Below, piece after piece: positions 1 through 18,400 of a DNA stretch of 64,000 nt. The notes beneath the pieces were generated by a model. That model saw only the letters and a program-made list of their open reading frames with translations, was not told the origin of the DNA and ran no database searches. The stretch lies in NCBI RefSeq assembly GCF_000756305.1, contig NZ_JRFE01000014.1, positions 525,006-589,005 on the forward strand, given 5' to 3'. How positions within the stretch are numbered: position 1 is the first letter of the stretch; each line of letters opens with the position of its first letter. A program made the position numbers and the translations under genes. Source of the DNA: Myxosarcina sp. GI1. GTDB lineage: Bacteria > Cyanobacteriota > Cyanobacteriia > Cyanobacteriales > Xenococcaceae.

Positions 1-105
1 GTAATTGAAACAGAATCAGAGATTGAAGAAACAACCACGTACGTAGAACCAGAACCAGTGGAAATTTTGGATTACGAAGACGCAATGGACGAATTTGGAT
101 GGTAA
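1..105 (+). CDS. tnsB: TnsB transposase, C-terminal tail (partial)
   Basis: An open frame enters from the window edge and ends with TAA at 103-105 after 34 codons. The tail is very acidic and ends in DEFGW. In V-K CASTs, TnsB is the DDE transposase that binds the transposon ends and joins them to the target, and its C-terminal tail contacts the TnsC filament. Identity rests on position directly before tnsC and on this acidic tail; none of the catalytic domain is visible. The stop overlaps the likely tnsC start, which fits one transcript. Confidence 0.8.
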   Translation, partial: VIETESEIEETTTYVEPEPVEILDYEDAMDEFGW

Positions 106-1007
106 CTATGGCTAAATCTAATGAAGATCGAGACGATTACAAAGAAGAAAATAGTCGGTATAAAAACTCAAGTGACAAAGATCAAGCTCAAGAATATGCG
201 GATGATTTGGGAAAAATAGAACTCCCAAACGAGTCTATCCAAAAAGAAATCGCTCGACTGAGATGTAAAAATATTGTTCTACTGCAACAGGTTGAACATT
301 TACATAATTGGTTGGAAGGAAAAAGAAAATCCCGTCAGTCTTGTCGTATTGTGGGGGAATCTCGTACTGGTAAAACTATCGCTTGTGAGTCATACAAATT
401 GAGACACAAGCCAAAACAAGAAACAGGAAAACCGCCAATTGTCCCTGTAATCAATATTCAACCCCCTCAAGAATGTGGTTCGAGAGATTTGTTTGCTCTA
501 ATTATTGAACATTTAAAGTACAAGGTTGTCAAAGGAACAGTCGGAGAAATTAGAAATAGAACTCTAAAAGTTTTGGAAAGATGCCAGGTTGAAATGCTAA
601 TTATTGACGAAGCAGACCGCCTAAGACCAAAAACTTTTGCTGATGTTAGAGACATTTTCGATAATTTAGGGATTTCTGTAGTTTTAGTGGGAACAGATCG
701 TTTGGACGCAGTAGTGAAGCGAGACGAACAAGTTCACAATCGTTTTCGAGCTTGTCATCGCTTTGGCAAATTATCTGGGGTTGAATTTCAAAAGACAGTA
801 ACTCTTTGGGAAAGGAACGTTTTGAAACTTCCTGTAGCCTCGAACCTGAGTAGTAAAGCTATGCTCAAAGTTTTAGCACCAGCAACTGGGGGTTATATTG
901 GTTTGCTAGATATGATTCTGCGAGAGTCTGCTGTTAGAGCTTTAGAAAAAGGTTTGAAGAAAATCGATCTAGCAACTTTGAAAGAGGTAGCGGGAGAGTA
1001 TAAGTAA
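99..1007 (+). CDS. tnsC: TnsC/TniB-like AAA+ ATPase of V-K CAST
   Basis: TnsC forms an ATP-dependent filament on target DNA and links Cas12k/TniQ to TnsB. The protein has a Walker A motif GESRTGKT (about residue 86), a Walker B motif MLIIDEADR (about residue 166) and a sensor-like stretch VVLVGTDRLDAV. From about residue 45 it follows closely what I remember of Scytonema TnsC (IARL, LQQVE/K, KRKxRxSCRxVGESRTGKT). The first 45 residues are charged and variable. ATG at 99 overlaps the tnsB stop; a second ATG at 108 is an equally good start. The stop TAA shares one base with the tniQ start (TAATG), indicating translational coupling. The frame is intact. Confidence 0.95.
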   Translation: MVTMAKSNEDRDDYKEENSRYKNSSDKDQAQEYADDLGKIELPNESIQKEIARLRCKNIVLLQQVEHLHNWLEGKRKSRQSCRIVGESRTGKTIACESYKLRHKPKQETGKPPIVPVINIQPPQECGSRDLFALIIEHLKYKVVKGTVGEIRNRTLKVLERCQVEMLIIDEADRLRPKTFADVRDIFDNLGISVVLVGTDRLDAVVKRDEQVHNRFRACHRFGKLSGVEFQKTVTLWERNVLKLPVASNLSSKAMLKVLAPATGGYIGLLDMILRESAVRALEKGLKKIDLATLKEVAGEYK

Positions 1008-1504
1008 TGGCAGAACTTCAGTCTTGGCTGTTTCAATTGGAACCTTATGAGGGAGAAAGTCTCAGCCATTTTTTGGGTAGATTTCGACGAGAGAATAATT
1101 TTACTACTTCTGTTTTAGGTCAAGAAGCAGGAATTGGTGCAGTAATTTCACGCTGGGAAAGACTTTATCACAATCCTTTTCCACCCCAGGAAGATTTAAA
1201 AGCACTAGCTAAAGTTGTTAAAGTAGACGTTAATCGCTTGAGAAAGATGCTACCACCAAAAGGTATTGGTATGAAGCATCAGCCAATTCGCCTCTGTGCA
1301 GCTTGTTATGTTGAATCACCTTGTCATCGCATTGAATGGCAGTTTAAGCAGACAGACAGATGTGAGAAACATCAGCTTAGGTTGTTATCGGAGTGTCCTA
1401 ATTGTAAAGCTAAATTTTCTATTCCTGCTTTATGGGCAAATGGCTGGTGCAGCAGGTGTTTTTTGACTTTTGCTGAAATGGTGCAGTATCAAAAATCTGT
1501 TTAA
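1007..1504 (+). CDS. tniQ: TniQ, small V-K type targeting adaptor
   Basis: This is a 165-residue protein, about the length of V-K TniQ and much shorter than TniQ/TnsD of other Tn7-like elements. It starts WLFQLEPYEGESLSHFLGRF, a TniQ N-terminal signature. Zinc-binding cysteine pairs follow: LCAACY (about residue 98), the CEKH region, CPNC (about 130) and WCSRC (about 147). TniQ caps the TnsC filament and joins it to the Cas12k R-loop. It is translationally coupled to tnsC by a one-base overlap and followed by a hairpin terminator. The frame is intact. Confidence 0.95.
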   Translation: MAELQSWLFQLEPYEGESLSHFLGRFRRENNFTTSVLGQEAGIGAVISRWERLYHNPFPPQEDLKALAKVVKVDVNRLRKMLPPKGIGMKHQPIRLCAACYVESPCHRIEWQFKQTDRCEKHQLRLLSECPNCKAKFSIPALWANGWCSRCFLTFAEMVQYQKSV

Positions 1505-1510
1505 TTGTAT

Positions 1511-1556
1511 TAAAGCGATCGCTGTTTTGAATAATGCGATCGCATTTTATTTTTTT
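1511..1556 (+). terminator. Rho-independent terminator built from two HIP1 octamers
   Basis: Two copies of GCGATCGC at 1515-1522 and 1536-1543 can pair as an 8-bp stem with a 13-nt loop, followed by a T-rich run (ATTTTATTTTTTT). It lies directly after tniQ, ends the tnsB-tnsC-tniQ operon and separates it from the convergent cargo gene. Confidence 0.75.
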
Positions 1557-3427
1557 GTTCGATAGGCTTGTTCGGGATGACTTGGTTTGTCGGGGTATCT
1601 TAATTCTATAAGTCCTTCTTCTACCATCTTTTTAAGAAATCGAGTTCTAAGCGTAGAATTAGTGCGATCGAGTATTACTTCTAATTGTTGCAGGGTTAAA
1701 AATCTCTCTTTGCACACCTCTAAAATAGCTTGTCGCATTACATCTGCTGAAACTTTTCTTTTCTCTCTGACAGGTCTTGCGATCGCCTTTAGTTTTTCCA
1801 AATCATCAGAGTTTTCACTTAAATGATCGGAGTTAACTGGCAAATGATCGGAGTTAACTGGCAAATGATCGGAGTTAACTGGCAAATGATCGGAGCTACT
1901 TACAGAAACTTGAATATTTTGATTCAATAGTAATGCTTTAGAAATATCTAAAGTGGGCAAACAATAGTAAGTGCCACGACCATGACCGTATTTTTGCAAC
2001 CAACGATTCTCTACTAAATATTTCAGGCGATCGCCAATATCTCTAGGGTGTTTTTGGCTAAAACCTTGGATACCATTATTGCTAATTTCCCCAAAACGAT
2101 GTGCTAACAATAAAATAATCCGATCTAACTCCTGGAGATAGCGATAATTATCCCCAACAAGTTTGCGTAATTCCTGTTCTATGTCTTCAGGAATGAAACT
2201 AACCATTGGTAGAGCAACTTTGGTAATGTTGAGATCTATATTTTCAGAAATAAAAGGTCTAAACCATTGTTGTTCTCGCCAAGCTCGCAAAATTTTAGGA
2301 AATCCAGAACCAGCTTGTTCTCCTAAACCAATCATTTTAAACATTTTTAATAAATTAGGATTACGAGGATCGCTTACACCTCCGTCGTAAAGCAGATCGA
2401 TAGGAATCCTTAAACGACCTGGATTAGAAAGCTCGAATCTGTCTTTAAATTTTAAAATCGTTATTGGGCGAGAAGATAAATGATCGGCATGGATTAACGT
2501 ATTAACCAAGGCTTCTCTTAGTGCTTCATGAACATGAGTCTCATCTTTACGCATGGCATCTCGATCGAGAATAAAAGGTACGTCCAAATCTTGTACGAGC
2601 CTTCCATAAACACGATAGTAAAAATTAAATAAATTTCCTTCCCATTTGCCATCTAAGGTAACTCTATATGTCCAACGTTCTTCTGGATCGTTAGATAATC
2701 TTTCTTGGTAATCCAAGTGGTAATGAGAGAAAAAATCTTGAATACTTAATTCAAGACCAAACATTAGTAATCCAGCAGCTGTTAGCCCTTCTTTTGTTGT
2801 ATTGCGATCGCGTTTCCATCCTCCTAACTTACACAGTAAATCTCGATCGTTCAATGCCAACCAAGGATGATCGGGTTGTCTAGAACTGAATCTTTGACGA
2901 TAAGCTTTGATTGTTTCTACATCGAGATCGCTAAAGTCAAAATTTTCCAAAATTTGAGAATCTTGGGGTTCACTGTTAGCATCCCGCAACATTTGGCGAA
3001 CTTCATCTTCTGTACAAGGATAATCTCCTTCATAGTTACGTTTATAAGTCCCTGTCATGGGATTGTTATTAATGTAAATAGGACGCTGAGTACGAGTTGC
3101 TTGAGGAACTTTAATAACGATTAGAGATTTATTCTCTATTGTTTCAATAGTTATGTCAGACTCGTTACAAATAGGGATGTTGAGTTTTTAAGGATTATTG
3201 TGATTGTCCCAAAATTCTTTAAGTTGTTTTTTTGAATTGTTAACACCGAGGATTTGAAATCTGCCTTTTTTCTCTGCAACACCAAGAACGACATAACCTC
3301 CTTCTGTATTGGCAAAAGCTGAAATACTTTTCCAAGCGTCTTTTGGTACGTTATCTTCAGCCCTTTTGCATTCAAAATCTTGACTTTCACCAATATCGAG
3401 TTTTTCTAGGAGGGTTTCTAAATCCAT
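1547..3427 (-). pseudogene. RecG-like AlbA_2/ATPase-domain protein, interrupted by one in-frame TAA
   Basis: The two open parts (3427-3188 and about 3187-1547) are in the same frame, separated by a single TAA at 3188-3190 in the context NNP-stop-KLNIP, most simply a CAA to TAA change. The N-terminal part is a Schlafen AlbA_2 domain (FECKRAED, SAFANTEGGYVVLGV). The main part has a HATPase_c_4-like block (HEALREALVNTLIHADHLSS) and GEQAGSGFPKI, typical of proteins annotated as ATP-dependent DNA helicase RecG-like or transcriptional regulators (COG2865). Winged-helix-like segments lie at the C terminus. The start is ATG at 3427 (MDLETLLEK). Such proteins are common on mobile elements and some are tied to phage defence, but the function here is unknown. 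The C-terminal part contains a heptapeptide repeat. Confidence 0.8.
1821..1899 (-). repeat. 21-bp tandem repeat coding for SDHLPVN units
   Basis: Three near-identical 21-bp units at 1821-1841, 1842-1862 and 1863-1883 plus a diverging fourth lie inside the RecG-like gene. On the minus strand they encode SDHLPVN repeated, then SDHLSEN and SDDLEKL. The units are multiples of three, so copy number can change without shifting frame. They form a low-complexity linker before the C-terminal winged-helix-like part. Confidence 0.9.
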
Positions 3428-3680
3428 TTGGAAAAAATAGCGATCGCACTTCAACAACAATCTACAAGCAACTACTATTTATAACTCACCTCTAAGAACA
3501 TTATGTCAATTTCTGCGTTTGTGGATAATCGCTAGCGAAAAGAGCTAAATATAGTGTTCTTATTTCATCACCGTGAGATAAGGCGAATATTTTGATTTCT
3601 TATTTCACATATAGCCTATTTTGTGAAATAAGACTTGTCATAAGTGCGATCGCTTTTCTCTAAATCCTCACAAAGCGCGA

Positions 3681-4859
3681 TTACAAAGTTAGCCGAAGAC
3701 ATCGCTTGTCAAGACATAGCTCACCTTTGAATGCTTTATCTAAAATAGAAGGAAGCAGTGCATCTAGTTCTTGTAATACTTTTTCTCGCGAATTTTTTGC
3801 ATTATCGACTTTCGCTTTTAAGTTATCAAACCAAAGTATCTTGTCATATGACGGAACTGGCACTTGAATATTATCCAATGCTTTGAGTCCAAGAGTTCTA
3901 TTCCTTCCTGCTCCTCCAGGCGAAGCATTTCCCAAATCTTCTAGACCTTTTGAAGTTAGAAAATGAAAGCATAAAAAGCTAGAAGAAGATAAACCTTGTT
4001 TGGGTACACAAGTTAAGAATCTGTGTGAACCAAATCTTCCGCTATCTTTTGGTTGTGCTACAGCTACTGCACCTTCCCAAGCAAAAACAATCTGAAACAA
4101 TAAATCGTTATTTTCGATTCGATACAGTTTTTTTGTTCCAACTTCTAATCCTGTCAAAGCAGGTTTATGAAAACTACCTTTACCAAAGCTTCTTATTCCT
4201 AATTCTGGATAGCTTTCTAAAGGATCTATTTCAACTTTTCTTCTTATTAATGGCGCAACTTTATTCATAGGTAAATAATCTGCACCTTCTATGATGTTTT
4301 GATAAACGCTGAGTAAAAGTCGCTCTAGTTTTTCGATTGCATCTTTTCTTAACGATCGCGCTTCTTCTATCTTCTCCGCCAACTCCTCAACCTTCGCCAC
4401 TATTCGCCGTTGTTCTTCTAATAGTGGTAATGGAATTTTAATCTCTAAAAATTTCTCTGGACGGATTCTATTTTTACCACTTGTACCCCTTGATTTTTCA
4501 TCGCATTGTTCCCAACAAGACTTTGTTTTGGTAAACCAATAAAATCAGCGTGGTTCTAAATTGTCTAAATCTGGTTTAAAACTGGGAAATTCATTAGATA
4601 CATAACATCCAGATAGATGAGAAGGAATAACAGTAACACTTCCATTTCTTGCCCATATTTTATTGACTATGATATCGTTCGTTTCGGTTCTGGATAGTTT
4701 TTTGTATTTAATTTGACTTCCATCTATTGATTCTCTTTGGTAAGCTCCTTCACCCCAAAGTCTTACTCCAATTTGTTTATAAAGTTTACCAGGAATTGGT
4801 GCTTCTGATCTTTCTACTGGTTTGACAATATCTTTTAACGAAATTAATGAAATTCCCAT
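3681..4859 (-). pseudogene. hsdS: HsdS, type I RM specificity subunit, interrupted by one in-frame TGA
   Basis: The two open parts share one frame and are split by TGA at 4545-4547 (LEPR-stop-FYWFTKTKS). HsdS recognises the DNA target with two target-recognition domains (TRDs) separated by coiled coils. The first TRD runs from MGISLISLKDIV (ATG 4859; a GTG at 4904 is also open but overlaps the upstream gene). A central conserved stretch follows (LPLLEEQRRIVAKVEELAEKIEEARSLR by pieces), then the second TRD (PGGAGRNR) and the C-terminal repeat (LDALLPSILDKAFKGEL). Length as read through is about 392 residues, normal for HsdS. The gene directly follows the DUF433 gene in the hsdR-hsdM operon. 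Without readthrough the M and R subunits lack specificity. Confidence 0.85.
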
Positions 4860-4875
4860 ATCTACCAAAAACTTT

Positions 4876-5124
4876 TTATGCAGTAATTTCAAACGGATAA
4901 ACACTTTCTCTTGTCAACAAAGCTGCATATTGCAAAGATTGTTTAATATCGTCTAGTTCTAAATCGGGATATTCTTCTAAGATTTCCTCGAAAGGTTTAC
5001 CGTTTGCTACTAAATTAAGAATTAAAGAAACGGGAATATGCATACCGCGAATACAAGCTTGTCCTGCCATAATGCGAGGGTTAAAGGTAATACGGTCTAA
5101 ATTTGCAAGATGATAATTATTCAT
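4876..5124 (-). CDS. DUF433-family small protein (VapB-like antitoxin type)
   Basis: This 82-residue protein has the DUF433 pattern: RITFNPRIMAGQACIRGMHIPV, then a helical region with LEEYPDLELDDIKQSLQYAA. DUF433 proteins are usually the DNA-binding antitoxin paired with a PIN-like DUF5615 toxin. No toxin gene follows here: hsdS begins 17 bases downstream. The ATG overlaps the hsdM stop as ATGA, so it is translationally coupled inside the RM operon. It is either an orphan antitoxin captured between hsdM and hsdS or an accessory regulator of the RM genes. Confidence 0.85.
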   Translation of the reverse strand: MNNYHLANLDRITFNPRIMAGQACIRGMHIPVSLILNLVANGKPFEEILEEYPDLELDDIKQSLQYAALLTRESVYPFEITA

Positions 5125-6968
5125 TGTTCGTTAATAATTGAATTAATTTCATTCATTATTTCCGCTACTCGCCGATCCTTTTCTAAAATATCGGCTAATA
5201 ACTGTTCTGGTGGTAAATGTTCGAGATCTTGTCCCGAATTGGGATTTTTGCGATCTAGATTATAAATTGCCCAGTAAATAGCATCGCCTTTGGTTTGTTC
5301 TTCTTTGGCGATGTCTCTTTGTTGTTTTTCTTCGGTTTGTAATTGTTTAATATCTTGCGCGATCGCTTTGATTTGAGTTTTAATTTCTTTTTGTTCTCTT
5401 TTGGGTGTGAAATCAAGAATAGTACTTTCTAAGTATTTGATTTTATCTTCTAACTCTTTAACTTGTTTGAGACATTTATCGGCTGTTGCTGATGCTTGTT
5501 TGACTGCATCTTTGTGAATGTTAGATTCGGCGATCGCTTTTTCCTTAGCTGCTTTAAAATTATATTTCCAAGCCTGTTCGTTTTCTTGGCGATTATTCCA
5601 CCACTCAATACAATCAACAAAAGCATCATCTTGAATGGGTTTGGTTTTGGTGTAGTTTTTTCTGCCTTCTGGTAAGGGTATCTCGTAGTACCAAATCTCC
5701 TCAGTAGGTTGAGAGGAATCAAAGAATAGTAAATTGGTGGGAATCTTAGTATAGGGTTCAAATACGCCGTTAGGTAAGCGCACAATGGTATGAAGGTTAA
5801 AGTCTTTGAGTAAGTCTTCTTTGATTTTGGCGCAGACACCATCCCCAAATAGAACGCCGTTAGGAAATACTACCCCTGCTTTTCCTATATGGTTATCTTT
5901 TTGCAGCTTCCGCATAATTAACTGCAAGAATAGCAGGGCAGTTTCTTTAGTTTGTTTGTCGCTAGGGAAATTGTTTTTAATTCTGTCTTCTTCCTCTCCC
6001 CCAAAAGGTGGGTTAGTCAGGATAATATCTACCCTGTCTTTAATTCCCATCTCGGAAAGACTAAACCGCAAACTATTACCGTCATCGATATCGGGATATT
6101 CAAACCCGTGTAGCAACAGGTTCATGTGCGCCAGCATTAAAGGTAACGATTTGGCTTCCCCACCGATAATGCTTTTCTGTAAAATTTGCCAATCGGTAGC
6201 AGTAGATTGTTTTTTGAGATATTCGTAAGCTTCGACTAAAAATCCACCCGTACCACAAGCAGGATCGAGAATAGTTTCTCCTAGCTTCGGTGCAATTACC
6301 TCCACCATAAAGCGAATTACAGGACGTGGCGTATAAAATTCTCCCGAATCTCCCGCAGCATCGCGCATTTCCTTTAACATTGATTCGTAAAGAAGGCTGA
6401 GAATATTGACTTCTTCCGATCTGTTGAAATGAATTTCGTTTATCTTGCTAAGAACATCGAATAACAATGTTCCGCTAATCATGCGGTTATTGACATCTTT
6501 AAATACTTTAGCAATGACATCGGCGCGATCGCGTCCTGTTTTACTTTTGAGACTGCGAAGATAAGCCAGTAACCCCAAACCCTTTGTTCCATCTGGTAAA
6601 TCCGCCTCATCGTTGTTGATAAAGTTTTTTAGGCGATCGCCACTAAAGTTTTCATTAGCAGCCCAATACGGCGCATCTGCGCCATCGTCTCCGAAGGAGA
6701 CTGGTGATGCTTCGCATCACGTCCAGCGATAGGGGGCTTTAATAGTAGGTTTATAAGTATCCCCTGCTAATTCTGCTTCATCTTCCCGTAGCTTTTCCGC
6801 ATCGTCTAACAGCTTGAGAAACATAATCCAAGTTAATTGAGGAAGGCGATCTAACTCCCCATTTAAACCCTTATCTTTCCGCATAATATCCCGTGCGGAT
6901 TTAATAACGCTTCCTAATTTTTGGGCGGTAGTAACTGATTTGGTAGTTTGTTTCTTTCTCGTTGCCAT
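5121..6968 (-). pseudogene. hsdM: HsdM, type I RM methyltransferase subunit, interrupted by a palindromic insertion with TGA
   Basis: HsdM is the N6-adenine methyltransferase and scaffold of type I RM. The N-terminal 83 residues (KLGSVIKSARDIMRKDKGL, LTWIMFLKLLDD, ending APYRWT) are open. Then comes a 51-bp hairpin-rich insertion (6669-6719) whose first codon in frame is TGA (6717-6719). After it the same frame resumes (YWAANENFSGDRL, then GLLAYLRSLKSKTGRDRADV). The SAM-binding motif DPACGTGGF and the catalytic motif NPPFGG are both intact. Reinitiation downstream (for example TTG at 6578) could give an N-terminally truncated protein. The start lies 4 bp after the hsdR stop and the end overlaps the DUF433 start. 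Confidence 0.88.
6669..6719. repeat. Palindromic small insertion (three hairpins) inside hsdM
   Basis: About 51 bp made of three adjacent inverted repeats: GGCGCA/TGCGCC, GTCTCC/GGAGAC and GTGATGC/GCATCAC, each with a 2-3 nt loop. It interrupts the codons for HsdM ...YRWT / WAANEN... and keeps the frame but brings in TGA. The GGCGCATCTGCGCC unit recurs in reverse-complement form near 54270, so this is a copy of a dispersed small repeat. Confidence 0.85.
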
Positions 6969-6972
6969 TTAA

Positions 6973-9795
6973 TTATGCAGAGTATAAAAGGTTTTGCAGT
7001 TGATATACGGCTTCTTTTAGCTGGGGAATACCACCAAATTTTTCTGCTATTTCCCGCACGTTGCCATAAGATTCAAATTCGCGGTTAGCTTTAAAGGTAG
7101 TAGGCATCTCTAATTCTTTTACTCCATATTCGGCGTATTTATTCAGAAGAATTTCTAAAATCTCCCGCGCATCTTCGCCATATTGTTCAAAAAAGTCCTT
7201 CTTACGACGTTTTAAGCGTTCTACTCGTTGCTTGTAAGTTAAAACTGGCGCATCAAAAGCAATATGACAAATTAGATCGAAGGGATCGGCTTCTGGTTGG
7301 TTGGCAACTTTCTGCAACTCTTCAAAATCGATTCCTTTTTCCTCTAACAACTCAATCACTTGCGATCGCCTATCTGGATCTGCCCATTTTTGCTGTATTT
7401 CTAAAGTAGAACGATAGAGAATACGGACTTGTTCTTTGGTATAGTCAATGAGTTTAGATAGTTTTAATTGATTCTCTGCATCAGGATCGTAGATTTGTTC
7501 CTCAACGATTTCTTCTGTTCCGCCATCTACATAGTATTTGCGAGGTAATTCTTCTTCATCTGATGGTAAACCTCTAAAACCAGATTCTTCTGTATCTTCT
7601 TGTTCTTGTTCCTCTGTTTCTGGTTCAATTGCTTTTCCCTCATCATCGATTTCTGTCTCCTCAACTAAAGCTGGTTCGCCGTCAAAATCAGGGTCTTCAA
7701 ACAGAACGGTGCTTTTAGTGTAGTCGATGATATTAAAGGATATTTTGTCGTATTCTTCTCTCACTCTAGTTCCTCTGCCAATTATCTGTTTAAAATCAGA
7801 CATCGAACGAATTACACGAGCAAGCACGATATTTTTACAGGTAGGAATATCGACTCCTGTAGTTAATAACTTAGATGTCACCGCAATAATATGGGTTTTA
7901 TCCTCGACATCTTTAAAATCATCTAAATGTCCTTTACCCACAACCCCAGCATCAGATGTAATGCGAGTAATGTAATCGGCATTGTCTTTAGTAATATCTG
8001 TATTGAGATTCCGTAATGCTTTAATCATTGCCTTGACGTGTTCTTCGTCTACACAAAAGACAATGGTTTTAGCGTATCTATCCGTAGCTTTGAGAAAATC
8101 TGTCAGGTGTTGGGCGATCGCTTTAGTTCTGGCTTCCCTAACTAGTCTTTGTTCAAAATCGGGAGTTAGATATGCCTCATTGGGAATAGTCCTACCATAG
8201 CAGTCTAGTTGTCCTTCACTCGGTCGCCATCCATCTTTATCCGAACGAGTCGTAACGCGATAAACTCGATATGGTGCTAAAAAACCATCCTCAATCCCTT
8301 CTTTTAGAGAATAAGTATATAAAGGATTGCCGAAATAACGATAGGTATCGACATTATCATTTCGTAGGGGCGTAGCAGTTAACCCCAACTGATAGGCAGG
8401 TTCAAAATACTCTAAAATACTACGCCAGCTACTCTCACTCTTCGCGCTACCGCGATGACACTCATCCACAATAATTAAATCGAAGTAATCGGGACTATAT
8501 TCTTTATACAGTCCAGGGCGAAAATTATCTTCAGCGATCGCCTGATAAATTGCAAAATAAATATCTCGTCCTTTCTTAGCTTCTCTTTGAATTTTATAAA
8601 TTTTATCCTCCTCAAAAGCCGCGAAATCCTTATTCATCGGATCGTCTACTAAGATATTGCGATCGGCTAGAAATAAGATTCTCGGCGGACGGGGTTCAAA
8701 AATTGTATTCCATTTCATCCCTGTAAGCATCCAGCAAATCTGAAAAGCTACCGAAGTTTTACCCGTACCCGTCGCCATTGTTAGTAGCAGCCTTTTTTGA
8801 CCTTTAATAATTGCTGAAACAGCAGCATAAATAGCATTTCGTTGGTAGTAACGAGGTTTTTTACCAGGAGTGGGGAACATCGAAGTAACTAACTTTTCTG
8901 CTACTTCAGTCTTTATTTGTTCGTCTGCCTCCCCAGTTAATCGCAACCAAAGCTGACTCGGAGTAGGAAATGTCTCTATTACATCAGACTGTTTTCCTGT
9001 AATGAAATCAAATTCTACAATTCCCTTTCCGTTAGTAGAGTAGGCAAACTTGACCCCTAACAACTTGGCATAATCGATCGCTTTTTCTAATCCCTCGTCG
9101 GGAGTTTTGTGTTTTCTCTTTGCTTCTACTACTGCGATTGGAAATTCACTCTTATACAACAGCAAGTAATCAACAAACTTTCTTTTCCCCCGTCGCTTCC
9201 TTTTTGACTGAATCTTACCAGCAGTAAAGTAATACTGTTCTGTATAATCATGAGGTTCACTTTCCCAGAGAGCTTCCCTCAGCTTCGGTTCGACATATTT
9301 ACGGCAAGTATTAGTTTCATTACTTATGCTGGCAAACTTTTTATTTTCTAATTCCTCTACTTGCTCTATTTTTCCCATATTTGCCAGTTTCTGACGCAAT
9401 CTGCGGTGAATGCGCTCTAACCATAAAGGAATCACGGGTTGACCCGATTTGACAGACGCGATCGCATCGGAAAAATTGAACTCAGCAAATGTCAGTGTTT
9501 CGTCAGTCAAGTTACGAGAAATTGCAAATTTTCTAGTCTGTGTCGGTTTAAAAAACTCTGGTTCTTCTTTTTTGACAGCTTCCAATCCAGCAACGGCTTC
9601 TTGAAACTCCAAACCAGCAGATAGTAAATACTCCATTACTGCCAAAGATACCAAGTCATCTTCAGTATAAAAAACACTGCGTCCTTTTCCTGTGGCATCT
9701 ACCGTAGGAACAACCACTTCTTTTTCTCGCCAATACTGTAACTGTCGCAGAGTACAGCCCGTAATTTTGGCTGCTTCCTTGCTGGTAAAAAACAT
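6973..9795 (-). CDS. hsdR: Fusion of a CvkR/MerR-type repressor to type I restriction subunit HsdR
   Basis: Residues 1 to about 150 are a MerR-family regulator: a winged-helix start MFFTSKEAAKITGCTLRQLQYWREK, then a helical part. By position (divergent from cas12k, 124 bp away) and by N-terminal sequence this is the Cas V-K repressor CvkR. From about residue 155 (SNETNTCRKYVEPKLREALWE) a complete EcoEI-like HsdR follows: nuclease motif VVEAKRK (about 225), Walker A MATGTGKT (about 340), DECHRG (about 436), GLTATP (about 465) and a C-terminal EcoEI_R_C-like region. Total is 940 residues, about 150 plus a normal 790. No stop or obvious start lies at the junction. It heads the operon hsdR-hsdM-DUF433-hsdS, so the RM genes sit behind the regulator's promoter. 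Known CvkR proteins, as I recall them, are separate small proteins. Confidence 0.9.
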   Translation of the reverse strand: MFFTSKEAAKITGCTLRQLQYWREKEVVVPTVDATGKGRSVFYTEDDLVSLAVMEYLLSAGLEFQEAVAGLEAVKKEEPEFFKPTQTRKFAISRNLTDETLTFAEFNFSDAIASVKSGQPVIPLWLERIHRRLRQKLANMGKIEQVEELENKKFASISNETNTCRKYVEPKLREALWESEPHDYTEQYYFTAGKIQSKRKRRGKRKFVDYLLLYKSEFPIAVVEAKRKHKTPDEGLEKAIDYAKLLGVKFAYSTNGKGIVEFDFITGKQSDVIETFPTPSQLWLRLTGEADEQIKTEVAEKLVTSMFPTPGKKPRYYQRNAIYAAVSAIIKGQKRLLLTMATGTGKTSVAFQICWMLTGMKWNTIFEPRPPRILFLADRNILVDDPMNKDFAAFEEDKIYKIQREAKKGRDIYFAIYQAIAEDNFRPGLYKEYSPDYFDLIIVDECHRGSAKSESSWRSILEYFEPAYQLGLTATPLRNDNVDTYRYFGNPLYTYSLKEGIEDGFLAPYRVYRVTTRSDKDGWRPSEGQLDCYGRTIPNEAYLTPDFEQRLVREARTKAIAQHLTDFLKATDRYAKTIVFCVDEEHVKAMIKALRNLNTDITKDNADYITRITSDAGVVGKGHLDDFKDVEDKTHIIAVTSKLLTTGVDIPTCKNIVLARVIRSMSDFKQIIGRGTRVREEYDKISFNIIDYTKSTVLFEDPDFDGEPALVEETEIDDEGKAIEPETEEQEQEDTEESGFRGLPSDEEELPRKYYVDGGTEEIVEEQIYDPDAENQLKLSKLIDYTKEQVRILYRSTLEIQQKWADPDRRSQVIELLEEKGIDFEELQKVANQPEADPFDLICHIAFDAPVLTYKQRVERLKRRKKDFFEQYGEDAREILEILLNKYAEYGVKELEMPTTFKANREFESYGNVREIAEKFGGIPQLKEAVYQLQNLLYSA

Positions 9796-9894
9796 TTACT
9801 TTACTATCTAATGTCTGTTGGAGTCTGAGATATCCATCTTATTGCCTAAAATAATTCTAAAAAATTTTGTTACATAAATTTTTATCTCCGCAAG

Positions 9895-9909
9895 AAAACA
9901 ATATGTTAT
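9895..9909. promoter_or_regulatory. Candidate CvkR operator upstream of cas12k
   Basis: AAAACAATATGTTAT fits 9 of the 10 fixed positions of the palindrome AnnACATnATGTnnT that I recall as the CvkR site from Anabaena. It ends 10 bp before the cas12k ATG at 9920, in the intergenic region shared with the divergent cvkR-hsdR fusion, so it could control both directions. Confidence 0.5.
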
Positions 9910-9919
9910 TATCAAACGT

Positions 9920-11906
9920 ATGAGCCAGATTACTATCCAATGTTACTTAATTGCCTCTGAATCTACCCGCAAACTTATGTGGGATATTAATGGCTGAGAA
10001 AAACACACCGTTAATCAATGAGATACTATGGCAAATAAACAATCATCCAGACTTTGACCAATGGCAGTCTGATGGAAAATTGCCTGGAAGTTTAGTTGGC
10101 GATTTATGCAAATCTCTGAAGAACGATCCGCTTTATGCAGGACAACCATCTCGGTTTTATCTGTCTGTAACCAAGTTAGTTAATTACATTTACAAATCCT
10201 GGCTCAAACTGCAGCAACGCAAACAGCGCCAACTTGAAGGAGAAGAACGTTGGTTATTGATGCTCAAAAGTGATACCGAGTTAATCAAAGAGTGCGAATG
10301 CAGTCTCGATGTTTTGCGAACTAGAGCCAAAGAAATTTTAAGCAATATAGAAACTAAGATAGAAAAAGCTAAGAAAAAGCCCAACGAAAAAGTACCAAAA
10401 AAGTCATCGCTTCTGTTCGAGCTATACGACGAATTTGAAGAGCAAGATGTTCTTACTCGTTCGGCAATATGTTACTTACTTAAAAACGGTAGCCAACTAT
10501 CCAAGCCAAATAAAGTTGAAGACAAAAAGAAATTTGCTCGGCGTCGTCGTAAAGTAGTCATTAAAATTGAAAGACTGAAAGAACAAATAGAAGGTAGTCG
10601 TCCTCATGGAAGAGATTTAACGAGCGAACAGTAGTTAGAAACTCTAATGATTGCTGCAACTACTGTTCCCAAAGACAATAAAGAAGCTCGTATTTGGCAA
10701 GATAAACTTTTAACCAAACCCAAATCTCTACCTTTCCCGATAACTTTTGAAACCAATGAAGATTTGAAGTGGTCGAGTATTGATAAACGGTTTTTGATTT
10801 GGCTAATATTCTTTTTTAGCATTAAAAATCAATTTGGATTTTCACTATTATTTTTGCGCTTATCTTCTTATCTCAATAGTCAACGCGACCGCTTATTTGT
10901 CAAATTCAATGGATTGAGTCAACATAGATTCCAAATATACTGCGATCGCAGGCAGCTATATTGGTTTCAACGCTTCTTAGAAGACCAACAAATTAAGAAA
11001 GAAGGCAAAAATAGTCACTCAAGCGGTTTGTTTATCCTTCGTTCGGCACAACTATCTTGGAGAGAAGATAAGAAAAAAAATACGGGCAAACCTTGGAATG
11101 ACAATCGCCTAGTTTTATTCTGTACTGTAGATACCAGATTTTGGTCGGCAGAAGGAACACAAGTAGCTAGAGAAGAAAAAAGGGCTAAAATTCTTAAGAC
11201 CATCGATAACATGAAGAAAAAAGGCGAGTTAACTGCTAATCAGCAAGCCTTTGTTCAAAAAAAACACACTACATTAGCTAAACTACACAATTTATTCCCT
11301 CGTCCATCTCGTAAACTCTACCAAGGCAAAGAAAATATAGTTCTTGGTGTAGCGATGGGTTTGTCAAAGCCAGCTACAGTCGCTATTGTTGATGGCAATA
11401 CAGGTAAGGCGATCGCCTTTCGTAGCATCAAACAATTATTGGGCAAAAACTACAGATTACTCAATCGCCAAAGACAACAGAAGCAAGCTTTATCTCGCCT
11501 GCGTCATAAAGCCCAAAAACGGGCATCTGATAACCAAAAAGGCGAATCTAACTTAGGTGAATATGTAGATCGATTGATTGCTAAAGCCATTGTGAAATTA
11601 GCCAAAGAGTATCAAGCAAGCGCGATCGCCGTTCCGAAAATTGAAGATATGAGAGAAATTGTTCAAAGTGAAATCAAAGCTAAAGCAGAGGCTAAAATTC
11701 CTGGCTATGAAGAAGGACAAAAGAAATATGCCAAGCAGTATCGAATCAACATTCATAACTGGAGTTACGGTAGATTAATTGAAAACATTACGAATCAAGC
11801 TAGTAAATCAGGTATTGCGATCGCCGAAGTCAAACAATCCGTACGCGGTAGTCCAATGAAAAATGCTTTAAGCATAGCGATCGCGTTTTATAATAAAAAC
11901 ACTTAA
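9920..11906 (+). pseudogene. cas12k: Cas12k, RNA-guided target-binding effector of V-K CAST, multiply broken
   Basis: Cas12k is the nuclease-inactive effector that binds tracrRNA-crRNA and the GTN-PAM target. The N terminus MSQITIQCYLIASESTRKLMW starts at ATG 9920. An extra base, probably in GGG 9981-9983, shifts the frame so that it ends at TGA 9995-9997, while the rest continues in the other frame as MAEKNTPLINEIL. An in-frame TAG at 10632-10634 stands where relatives have a tryptophan codon before LETL. After NEDLKWSSID about 35 hydrophobic residues are inserted before RLFVKFNGL (about 10785-10890), a place where relatives have almost none. Downstream the RuvC-like part (LGVAMGLSKPATVAIVD, HKAQKRA, LIAKAIVKLAKEYQASAIAVPK, AKQYRINIHNWSYGRL) reads open to the stop. 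A full protein cannot be made by ordinary translation. Confidence 0.93.
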
Positions 11907-12524: not shown

Positions 12525-12750
12525 CGCGCCGCAGTTCATGCTTTGAAAAGCCTCTGTGCTGCGAAAAATGTGGGTTAGTTTGATTGTCTAAAGACGATCT
12601 TGCTTTCTGACCCTGGTAACTACTCGCCCCGATGCTGTTTCTAATTCAATTAGAAAGAATAAGGTGCGCTCCCAGCAATAGGGGTATGGGTTTACTATAG
12701 TAGTGGTTGCTGAATCACCTTCGAGCAAGAAGGATTTTTGCTTATTTGAT
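12525..12750 (+). ncRNA. tracrRNA 2, a second diverged copy
   Basis: This is a second full set of V-K tracrRNA blocks about 580 bp after the first: GCCGCAGTTCATGC, GGGTTAGTTTGATTG, TGCTTTCTGACCCTGG, GGTGCGCTCCCAGCAATA, GTAGTGGTTGCTGAATCA. It differs from tracrRNA 1 at many positions, mostly in helices. The hairpin CCTTC-GAGCAA-GAAGG (12718-12733) precedes an anti-repeat GATTTTTGCTTA. That sequence does not fit the array repeat well but can pair with the truncated repeat of the homing guide (AAAATT at 12776-12781 and TAAC at 12771-12774). This suggests it serves the homing guide. Confidence 0.88.
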
Positions 12751-12906: not shown

Positions 12907-12978
12907 CTCCCCAGGTAGGATTTGAACCTACGACCAATCGATTAACAGTCGACCGCTCTGCCGCTGAGCTACTGAGGA
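12907..12978 (-). tRNA. tRNA-Asn (anticodon GTT)
   Basis: The minus strand folds as a 72-nt tRNA. The acceptor TCCTCAG pairs with CTGGGGA (one G-T pair), the D arm is GCTCAGCGGCAGAGC, the anticodon loop CTGTTAA holds GTT, and the T arm is GTAGGTTCGAATCCTAC, with discriminator G. CCA is not encoded. Its 3' end is 23 bp from the CAST end, and its anticodon-to-T-arm segment is the homing target. The transposon sits downstream of the gene, so the tRNA is left intact. Confidence 0.97.
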
Positions 12979-15831: not shown

Positions 15832-16362
15832 ATGACACTCATCTTAGAAACTTCACGACTAATTCTCAAACCACTTCTAAAGTCTGATTTCGACTTACTT
15901 CACAAGATACTTGTCGATCCCTATGTCAGAAAATACCTCTGCGACGACACAATATTTTCTGTGGGGCAAATCCAAGCAATGTTGCAAAAGAGTCAAGAAC
16001 TTTTTGAGCGAGAAAAATTTGGTCTTTGGTCGATTGCAAACAAAACCAAATTAGAAATTATTGGTTTTGTCGGCTTGTGGTACTTCTTTGAAGAAGCTCA
16101 ACCTCAATTAATTTATGCCTTATTGCCTAAAGCCACTAAAAAAGGTTATGCGACAGAAGCCGCCGCCAGAATATTAGATTATAGCTTTGTCAAACTTGGA
16201 TACAATTATTTGGTCGTCAGTTGCGATCGCCCCAACCTCGAATCTCAACAAGTCGCGACAAGATTGGGAATGAAACAACTAGAAGCAAGAATGATAGACG
16301 GAAAACCTACTTTATTTTTCAGAATCGACAAAATTACATTTGCTAAAAACAATTGCACCTAA
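15832..16362 (+). CDS. GNAT-family N-acetyltransferase
   Basis: It begins TLILETSRLILKPLLKSDFDLLHKIL, the pattern of RimJ/RimL-like acetyltransferases, and has the acetyl-CoA region (IYALLPKATKKGYATEAAARILDYSF) and the closing motif VSCDRPNLESQQVATRLGM. It transfers acetyl from acetyl-CoA to an amine; the substrate is unknown. The start is ATG 15832; a TTG at 15808 would add eight residues with no support. Confidence 0.85.
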   Translation: MTLILETSRLILKPLLKSDFDLLHKILVDPYVRKYLCDDTIFSVGQIQAMLQKSQELFEREKFGLWSIANKTKLEIIGFVGLWYFFEEAQPQLIYALLPKATKKGYATEAAARILDYSFVKLGYNYLVVSCDRPNLESQQVATRLGMKQLEARMIDGKPTLFFRIDKITFAKNNCT

Positions 16363-16446
16363 AAACTCAGAACATCGGTTGCTAAATGCTTCAAATGAGT
16401 AACTAAACGCCGTCTAAAAATATGTAATGTAACTTTTTTTATCATT

Positions 16447-17121
16447 TTATTCAGTTTCTTCCGAACTAGGATTAGCCGTTGGTGGTGCAGTTTGTGGATT
16501 TGTAGGTATAGTTTCTGTGGGAGTTGCTTCTAGTTCGGGTTCTCTTTCTCGTACTGTTGGAGGAGGAATTAGCCACAATACTGCGGCTGCTAATGCCAAA
16601 CTAGCAACACCTACGACTGCGGGAGTTGCTCTGTCGGCAAATGGTTGTTCTGGCTTGCGGTAGCGTCTGCCTACAGAGTGGAGTTCTAGAGCCAGTTGTG
16701 GTAAGGTAGCGCGATCGCTGGCTAGCCGATCTATAGCATCGACAAGATCGAAAAACTCTACAGTAGTTAAATCGATCGCCGTAACAGCTTCACTACTTTC
16801 TGGTTGGGATTCTACAGTCAGTCGGTGTAAATTGTTTTCAGTTTGAGTAATTTTAACCTGGGGATATTCTGTCTCATTTTGAGGATGGGGTAAGCCACTT
16901 AGAAATTCTTGAGCATAGTTACTAACAGCTTGCACCAAGTTATTTAAAAATACGCTACCGCCACTGAGTTTTCGATCGGCACCGATAATACATTCAGCAT
17001 TGACTAAGATTGCCATTGGCGATCGCCCGTCTAAGATATTTACTTTATCTTCGGAAACATCTTCCAATCCTTCTAGGATTAAAGAACAGTTGGGTAAATT
17101 GTATTGCCTTGTAATGCTCAC
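16447..17121 (-). CDS. DUF4335-family cyanobacterial membrane-anchored protein
   Basis: A 224-residue protein with the DUF4335 start (SITRQYNLPNCSLILEGLED) and the block LSGGSVFLNNLVQAVSNYAQEFLSG. A single membrane segment (VVGVASLALAAAVLWLIPP) lies near residue 175, followed by an acidic Thr/Pro-rich tail. Function is unknown. It starts 1 bp after the stop of the DUF3038 gene, a pairing I know from many cyanobacteria, so the two probably act together. Confidence 0.85.
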   Translation of the reverse strand: MSITRQYNLPNCSLILEGLEDVSEDKVNILDGRSPMAILVNAECIIGADRKLSGGSVFLNNLVQAVSNYAQEFLSGLPHPQNETEYPQVKITQTENNLHRLTVESQPESSEAVTAIDLTTVEFFDLVDAIDRLASDRATLPQLALELHSVGRRYRKPEQPFADRATPAVVGVASLALAAAVLWLIPPPTVREREPELEATPTETIPTNPQTAPPTANPSSEETE

Positions 17122-17122
17122 T

Positions 17123-17752
17123 TTAAGCTACCTCTCCATCAAACAAACTGTACCAAACTCTCTCTATACCTCTAGTTCCCGTACAGAATAACAGCTTGCG
17201 TAATAAACTTAAAGCTAACTCGTTCAACTCTGCTTCCGAGCCTATGTACGCCGATACTTTAGCCCTTCTAGCATTCATCCGACTGCGAAAATGAGCGCGA
17301 AATCTGGCACAATATTCTGCCAGACGAAAATGATTTTCCAGAGGCAGTTGTTTGGCTCTCATTTGTTGTTCGGCAATTAATAACTGTCTGATTATGACTA
17401 CTAACTCTTTAGCACGATAGTTAGCCAAAATCATCAAAGCTTTTGCTTCGTCCAAACTTAAAGAATCCCGCGTATAAGAACGTCGCCAGGGATTGCTACG
17501 GCGCAAACGCCAAAAGACTACTCTATTTTTAATAATTTCCTCAATTTTTAACTGTTTTGCCGTAGCTAACATCTTTTCAGAAGCCCCCAACTCTAGAGCC
17601 TCAATAGCTAATAAGAGTAGATCGATTTGTTGTTGGGTGTGAGGCGAACAACCACGCGCTGGCAGGGCAATATCGGGTAAGGAATTTAAAATTGCTGGTT
17701 CCTTAGCGATCGCTGGCTGAAAATCGGATGTTGTGCTTGCGGATTGACTCAT
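17123..17752 (-). CDS. DUF3038-family cyanobacterial protein
   Basis: A 209-residue soluble, helix-rich protein with LPDIALPARGCSPHTQQQIDLLLLAIEAL, VVFWRLRRSNPWRR and LSLDEAKALMILANYRAKELVVIIRQL, the DUF3038 signature. It is the first gene of a two-gene unit with the DUF4335 gene. Function is not known. Confidence 0.85.
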   Translation of the reverse strand: MSQSASTTSDFQPAIAKEPAILNSLPDIALPARGCSPHTQQQIDLLLLAIEALELGASEKMLATAKQLKIEEIIKNRVVFWRLRRSNPWRRSYTRDSLSLDEAKALMILANYRAKELVVIIRQLLIAEQQMRAKQLPLENHFRLAEYCARFRAHFRSRMNARRAKVSAYIGSEAELNELALSLLRKLLFCTGTRGIERVWYSLFDGEVA

Positions 17753-17881
17753 TACTAAATAAAGTCCATATTCTAAATTAAATATTTCTTCTTAATCGAG
17801 GATAACAAATAGTTTCTGCTGCTATGATGCCATAGCGATGGCGATAAACATTGCCCTTAGTAGATTTATTGACTTTTATTT

Positions 17882-18400
17882 ATGGAACTAAAATCTTTAA
17901 TTCGCGATATTCCCGATTTTCCCCAACAGGGAATTATGTTTCGAGATATAACCACTTTGCTAAAAAATCCCCAGGGCTTACGCTACACCATCGATACTCT
18001 GACACAGAAATGCCGCGATCGCAATTTATTACCAGATTATATAGTCGGCATGGAATCAAGAGGTTTTGTTTTCGCTCCGCTTTTAGCCTATCAACTCAAC
18101 GCGGGTTTTATTCCCGTACGCAAACCAGGTAAGCTTCCTGCCGCAGTTCATCATATCGAGTACGAATTAGAATACGGTACCGATAGGCTAGAAATACATC
18201 AAGATGCGCTTGAAGCTGGTGCAAAGGTACTAGTTGTTGACGATCTCATTGCTACGGGGGGAACCGCTAAAGCTACTGCCGAACTGTTAGCCAAAATGGG
18301 AGCAAAAATTTTAGGATTTGCTTTTGTAATCGAACTGACTGGTTTAAATGGCAGACAAATGTTACCAAATTTACCGATTATTAGCTTGATGGAGTATTAA
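17882..18400 (+). CDS. apt: Adenine phosphoribosyltransferase
   Basis: Converts adenine and PRPP to AMP in purine salvage. 172 residues, the usual length. It starts [27 protein letters not shown], has [16 protein letters not shown] and the PRPP-binding loop [16 protein letters not shown] (about residues 117-132), and ends with the typical [12 protein letters not shown]. The ATG at 17882 is supported by the family N terminus. A divergent promoter region separates it from the DUF3038 gene. Confidence 0.97.

Follow-up and report, generated by a model that had tools for sequence, protein, structure and literature searches.

CvkR-HsdR Fusion in the Window

In the 64,000-nt stretch of the Myxosarcina sp. 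GI1 genome analyzed in this study (the window), a single ORF encodes a true fusion of CvkR, the repressor of type V-K CASTs, with a complete HsdR of the EcoAI type (type IB). We consider it fairly probable that the fusion of cvkR with hsdR created a bifunctional protein, repressor and R subunit at once, that the RM genes travel as cargo of the CAST, and that the copy in the window is a relic. The ORF and its parts are as follows.

6973..9795, minus strand: CvkR-HsdR fusion ORF, 940 aa, with an ATG start and no internal stop
9376..9795, minus strand: CvkR part, residues 1-140, with wHTH, dimerisation domain and C-terminal helix (7xn2 match, Pfam MerR_1)
9322..9375, minus strand: linker, residues 141-158
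6976..9321, minus strand: EcoAI-family HsdR, residues 159-940, with nuclease, SF2 motor and EcoEI_R_C domain (NF046051 match)

Searched separately, as an earlier note on this DNA had proposed, the two parts were recognized as CvkR and as EcoAI-family HsdR. Residues 2-139 of the fusion matched the whole of Anabaena CvkR/Alr3614 (PDB 7xn2, its residues 9-151) with an E-value of 2.1e-35, the second-best PDB match having an E-value of 0.05. The part shows the features of its family at full length, namely a MerR-type wHTH, the CvkR dimerisation domain and the C-terminal helix. Its start at 9795 on the minus strand is divergent from the cas12k ATG at 9920 on the plus strand, which is typical for the CvkR family; this cas12k is a pseudogene. 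The earlier note had described a MerR-type regulator at the position of the Cas12k repressor, and the 7xn2 match together with the divergent arrangement identifies it as a true CvkR.

Residues 159-939 matched profile NF046051 (EcoAI/FtnUII HsdR) over positions 2-768 of 768 with 1003 bits, the curated cut-off being 550 bits, and the solved HsdR 3h1t matched residues 1-564 of the HsdR part with an E-value of 8e-221. The D and ExK of the PD-(D/E)xK nuclease, Walker A and DECH are present, and the QxxxY motif reads K in place of the Q that unfused relatives retain. The claims that a complete HsdR follows in frame without a stop at the junction and that it carries the nuclease, Walker and DECH motifs were thus both correct. 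CvkR and HsdR are joined end to end, and neither partner lacks an essential portion.

Fused Proteins in Other Cyanobacteria

Sampled cyanobacterial genomes were scanned with the CvkR domain and the loci found were then inspected. Including the window, ten fusion ORFs were present in nine genomes, so that the search for other CASTs with the same architecture, also proposed in the earlier note, led to fusions in eight further genomes. A scan of a plasmid collection revealed no CvkR-HsdR fusion. Five of the fusions (L042, L073, L043, L045, L046) are full-length proteins of about 1018-1069 aa whose HsdR belongs to a family here called type A; the shorter ones are L044 (642 aa), L047 (299 aa), L074 (292 aa) and L138 (273 aa). 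All five full-length type A fusions retain every motor motif as well as hsdM and hsdS. In L045 and L046, whose HsdR is thus not of the window's EcoAI type, tnsB, tnsC, tniQ, cas12k, hsdM and hsdS are all apparently intact ORFs. In L043, HsdR, HsdM and HsdS are kept, the CvkR domain is short by about 23 residues and no cas12k is located nearby. The damaged CvkR of L043 on the one side and the motor-less L047, L074 and L138 on the other indicate that the loss of one half does not entail that of the other.

In a CvkR-domain tree of 72 rows, the window, all type A fusions, L047 and L074 formed one clade (support 100/97), which also contained the relic L097. L044 was placed outside this clade as sister to an unfused CvkR (100/100), and L138 (tree row L037, labelled unfused there) likewise fell outside it, on a long branch. 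Because well-supported branches separate L044 from the fused clade, the tree argues for at least two origins of the CvkR-HsdR fusion; L138 suggests a third, and overall there were probably three or more.

The HsdR parts of type A share 64-90% identity with each other and match PRK11448 from position 227. Among the sampled cyanobacteria, type A HsdR was found only in fused form at an E-value threshold of 1e-100; two further matches belong to a distant family of the phylum with a different N-terminus. The idea that all fusions contain a single HsdR family was rejected, as the window HsdR is about 27% identical to type A. This low identity and its EcoAI type imply either a further fusion within the same CvkR clade or an exchange of the HsdR part. 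The grouping of the L044 HsdR beside that of the window rests on a very long branch and carries no weight as evidence.

Operators and DNA-Contact Residues of the Repressor Half

The published CvkR operator is the palindromic 15-nt sequence AnnACATnATGTnnT. One site of the form used by the fused clade is present in the window, and it is the only one.

9895..9909: CvkR operator in the cas12k promoter, AAAACAATATGTTAT, one mismatch to AnnACATnATGTnnT (shuffle P 0.015)

The operator in the cas12k promoter is perfect in L042, L046 and L073, has one mismatch in L045, L047 and L074, and is absent from the cas12k promoter of L044. In the tnsB promoter, it is perfect in the CAST of the window (position 10366 of locus L040, shuffle P 0.002), in L044 and in L046, and has one mismatch in L045. 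With respect to the residues by which Alr3614 contacts DNA, R20 and Q23 are conserved in all ten fusions and R42 in nine of them, while K40 is kept in four and replaced by R in four more; the window CvkR holds all four contacts (R20/Q23/K40/R42). These sequence comparisons support the view that cognate CvkR operators have been kept at the cas12k and tnsB promoters.

Selection on the Restriction Half and Reduced Forms

For the pair L042 and L073, dN/dS was lowest in the motor (0.08), followed by CvkR (0.13), the C-terminal domain (0.15) and the nuclease domain (0.21), and these low values in one close pair indicate purifying selection on both halves. Four of the fusions have lost a functional motor. 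In L044 it is dead, with Walker A changed from GTGKT to ESGTT and DECH to DECEE, but about 490 diverged HsdR-derived codons remain without a stop and show the codon-position G+C of a coding region, and six stops occur in the 70 codons beyond. The L044 fusion ORF (15975-17900) adjoins apparently intact cas12k, tnsC and tniQ genes. The other three fusions comprise only the nuclease domain.

L047, 9916-10812: nuclease-only fusion, type A nuclease domain
L074, 9479-10354: nuclease-only fusion, type A nuclease domain
L138, 9932-10750: nuclease-only fusion, EcoAI-type nuclease domain

D, ExK and QxxxY are retained in all three, whose ends lie close to the linker that connects the nuclease with the motor domain: the HSDR_N match stops at residue 264-274 in L046, L047 and L074, and the motor match of L046 starts at residue 305. 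A motor remnant was looked for downstream of the fusions in L047 and L074 and none was found. That all three stop at this boundary could be due either to selection in favor of the nuclease domain or to cargo having been lost repeatedly, and L047, L074 and L138 could possibly act as repressor-nuclease proteins of 273-299 aa. The three consecutive genes behind the repressor-nuclease gene of L138 (10947-16016) resemble, by sequence look only, those of a VWA protein, a phosphatase and a large kinase.

State of the Transposon and the RM Operon in the Window

The element in the window is ordered tnsC, tniQ, cargo as far as the fusion, cas12k, two tracrRNA-like stretches and a tRNA-Asn. Besides the fusion and the operator, the following features were assigned to it.

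99..1007, plus strand: tnsC, intact ORF
1007..1504, plus strand: tniQ, intact ORF
1547..3460, minus strand: Schlafen/AlbA-type cargo gene, interrupted by a TAA at 3190
3681..4904, minus strand: hsdS, interrupted by an in-frame TGA at 4547
4876..5124, minus strand: DUF433 gene of the RM operon
5121..6968, minus strand: hsdM, interrupted by a 17-codon insertion with an in-frame TGA at 6719
9920..11906, plus strand: cas12k pseudogene with a frameshift near 9987, a TAG at 10632 and about 33 extra residues
11951..12144, plus strand: first tracrRNA-like stretch with a repeat pair, named by position and look only
12528..12729, plus strand: second tracrRNA-like stretch with a repeat pair, named by position and look only
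12907..12978, minus strand: tRNA-Asn (GTT) beyond the CAST genes, probably the attachment-site side

Of the intact tnsB, tnsC, tniQ and cas12k genes that mark a functional V-K CAST, the window holds only tnsC and tniQ; tnsB of this CAST (locus L040) is frameshifted and lies mostly just outside the window. The 4-nt gap between the fusion and hsdM and the overlap of hsdM with the DUF433 gene are as the earlier note had given them. The functional RM operon under the repressor's promoter that it had also proposed does not exist in the window, because hsdM and hsdS are both broken, and the working cas12k that it had implied beside the fusion is the pseudogene listed above. As cas12k, tnsB, hsdM and hsdS all carry disabling lesions, this copy of the CAST and its RM operon is probably a relic. 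The disruption of HsdM, HsdS, Cas12k and TnsB leaves no local dual function unless other subunits act in trans, and the fusion in the window can at most serve as a repressor. That its 2.8-kb ORF has stayed unbroken amid this decay is not significant: with about seven lesions in 8.5 kb of neighboring genes, we estimate the chance of such an ORF escaping at roughly 1/10.

Some further observations concern the same region. The DUF433 gene is located between hsdM and hsdS, and the insertion in hsdM (about 6664-6719), which supplies the in-frame TGA, resembles a short dispersed palindromic repeat. The tracrRNA-like stretches downstream of cas12k are two diverged copies with 77-90% identity in pieces, and an Rfam search with them gave no match. 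Contig C24 of the same genome (L041) contains a second pair consisting of cas12k (8401-10248) and cvkR (10322-10834), with a cas12k ORF of 615 aa, a perfect operator and a CvkR that is not fused; this pair could be a target in trans for the fused CvkR of the window.

Origin of the Fusion

The closest relatives of the window HsdR, with 74-78% identity, are unfused and start with M-SNEANTC. At the position of their start ATG, codon 158 of the window ORF (9322-9324) is ATA, followed by SNETNTC. Since the M of the unfused relatives aligns with this ATA, the former hsdR start codon is now an Ile codon. The same alignment bears on the possibility, raised in the earlier note, that the N-terminal part is an unrelated HsdR extension: as the closest HsdR homologs begin with M-SNEANTC where the window has I-SNETNTC, this part is CvkR and not an HsdR extension, and together with the 7xn2 match the start-site alignment rules that possibility out.

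A locus resembling the presumed ancestor was found in L139, where cvkR, TAA, ATA, GCT, ATG and hsdR follow each other in one reading frame and the genes are unfused; its HsdR is 78% identical to that of the window. In L128, a 5′-truncated cvkR and hsdR are likewise in frame, 17 nt apart, and in L140 cvkR and hsdR lie directly side by side, out of frame with each other. RM operons of this type occur as cargo near cas12k or other CAST genes in L129, L130 and L139. About 17 of some 60 unfused CvkR loci, among them L077, L078 and L139, have hsdM or hsdR as the gene that directly follows cvkR in the same orientation, so that RM genes frequently share the direction of the CAST repressor gene. The tandem genes in L139, L128 and L140 and the RM neighbors of unfused cvkR genes show that the ancestral setting of the fusion is still visible. 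Most likely, the fusion would have arisen from a tandem, in-frame cvkR-hsdR pair by loss of the cvkR stop codon and of the hsdR start codon.

Such a setting also makes accidental joining easy. Read-through might have joined an RM gene behind cvkR to the repressor, whose tail would then be tolerated without benefit while the two halves work independently. This explanation, to which we give slightly less than an even chance, is compatible with the preferred one, and the truncated or motor-dead tails tolerated beside an intact cas12k in L044 and L074 agree with it. However, the fused clade is old, with about 50% CvkR identity, and every member read is fused; moreover, the restriction of type A HsdR to the fused form in the sampled cyanobacteria and the repeated origins are not what a mere passenger would lead one to expect.

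Possible Functions of the Fused Proteins

According to the preferred explanation, that of a bifunctional repressor/R subunit, a dimer of the fusion in the intact relatives would bind the 15-nt palindromic operator and so repress cas12k and tnsB, and the same chain would join HsdM and HsdS as R subunit for restriction. For L045 and L046 such a dual role is likely, and we infer that both biochemical activities reside in the one protein. Elements of this type, in which all genes are apparently intact, are candidates to reveal what switches such transposons on.

A free HsdR might be formed in addition, by internal initiation or by proteolysis near the junction, and the two products would then act separately. 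ATG codons close to the junction occur in the window (codon 140) and in L043, L045, L046, L047 and L073. We regard this as unlikely, since in the window no Shine-Dalgarno-like sequence precedes codon 140 and the native HsdR start has become ATA, and L042 has no start-like codon before codon 179, which is inside the nuclease domain.

The two halves might instead be coupled as a switch: ClpXP would destroy HsdR translocating on unmodified DNA, the fused repressor would be removed with it, and the transposition genes would be released on arrival. The window HsdR is of the EcoAI type, and as EcoAI is the prototype of type IB, removal of the fused repressor is conceivable in a host that is not yet methylated. 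ClpXP degrades R subunits of types IA and IB during their translocation on unmodified DNA; this degradation requires the motor, being abolished by motor mutations (PMC3874165, PMC4231737). CvkR has no recognized effector (PMC9938897), a gap that a ClpXP-type signal would fill. If this were true, the dependence of HsdR activity or stability on DNA methylation would provide a direct, testable signal relieving CvkR repression. We nevertheless think a switch of this kind improbable: the ClpXP effect was established outside the cyanobacteria, and the motor-less L047, L074 and L138 and the motor-dead L044 could not use it. A broader version, in which the fusions are a selected device that frees the CAST when HsdR is engaged or destroyed by ClpXP, as a signal of arrival in a new host, and in which some lineages were reduced to a repressor-nuclease (about 275-300 aa) whose PD-(D/E)xK site seems intact, is a speculative proposal that we hold to be doubtful.

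It is also rather improbable that the HsdR part has given up restriction and now serves the repressor as a DNA-binding or nuclease appendage. The three forms ending behind a nuclease domain with D, ExK and QxxxY, and the long open, diverged HsdR stretch of L044 (about 490 codons) with its dead motor motifs, would fit such a domesticated tail. However, the full-length L042, L043, L045, L046 and L073 keep their motor motifs, hsdM and hsdS, and cargo loss could have left the reduced forms behind. Finally, an assembly or sequencing error at the window junction, which the many broken genes around the fusion might bring to mind, is hardly credible in view of nine other fusion ORFs in independent assemblies, some of which consist of a single contig or a few, and of a junction that differs from L139 in both the stop and the start codon.

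Comparison with Known Systems

Four CvkR-HsdR fusions in V-K CASTs were reported in a single sentence by Ziemann et al. (2023; PMC9938897), which was the only paper naming both CvkR and HsdR that we found in a literature search. The earlier note had taken a fusion of this kind to be undescribed, a view that this sentence overturns. As described there, these proteins likewise combine a CvkR-family regulator with an hsdR restriction domain, in cyanobacterial V-K CASTs and divergent from cas12k. The main text gives no anatomy. The comparison is one of descriptions, and the window may be among the four. Because the local copy is probably a relic and fusions of this kind have been published, the window itself is of limited interest. 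Fusions have arisen repeatedly, with two HsdR families, and reduction to a repressor-nuclease has recurred as well, which suggests something beyond a single accident.

CvkR/Alr3614 of Anabaena PCC 7120 (7xn2) shares with the window protein the whole repressor length, the contact residues and the operators in Pcas12k and PtnsB, but it is a free protein of 150 aa, whereas about 800 residues follow the CvkR part in the window. Compared to HsdR of the EcoAI/FtnUII family (type IB; NF046051; 3h1t), the nuclease, motor and C-terminal domains are equally complete; the differences are the added N-terminal CvkR, the loss of the own start codon and K for Q in QxxxY. RM operons with their own regulator, such as controller proteins or other RM repressors, also encode a DNA-binding regulator together with the RM genes. 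The regulator in the window, however, is of a transposon-control family and covalently joined to the R subunit, so that this is a resemblance only. New in comparison with the published fusions are the two HsdR families, the several origins, the nuclease-only and motor-dead forms, the conservation of the operators and the decayed state of the host element.
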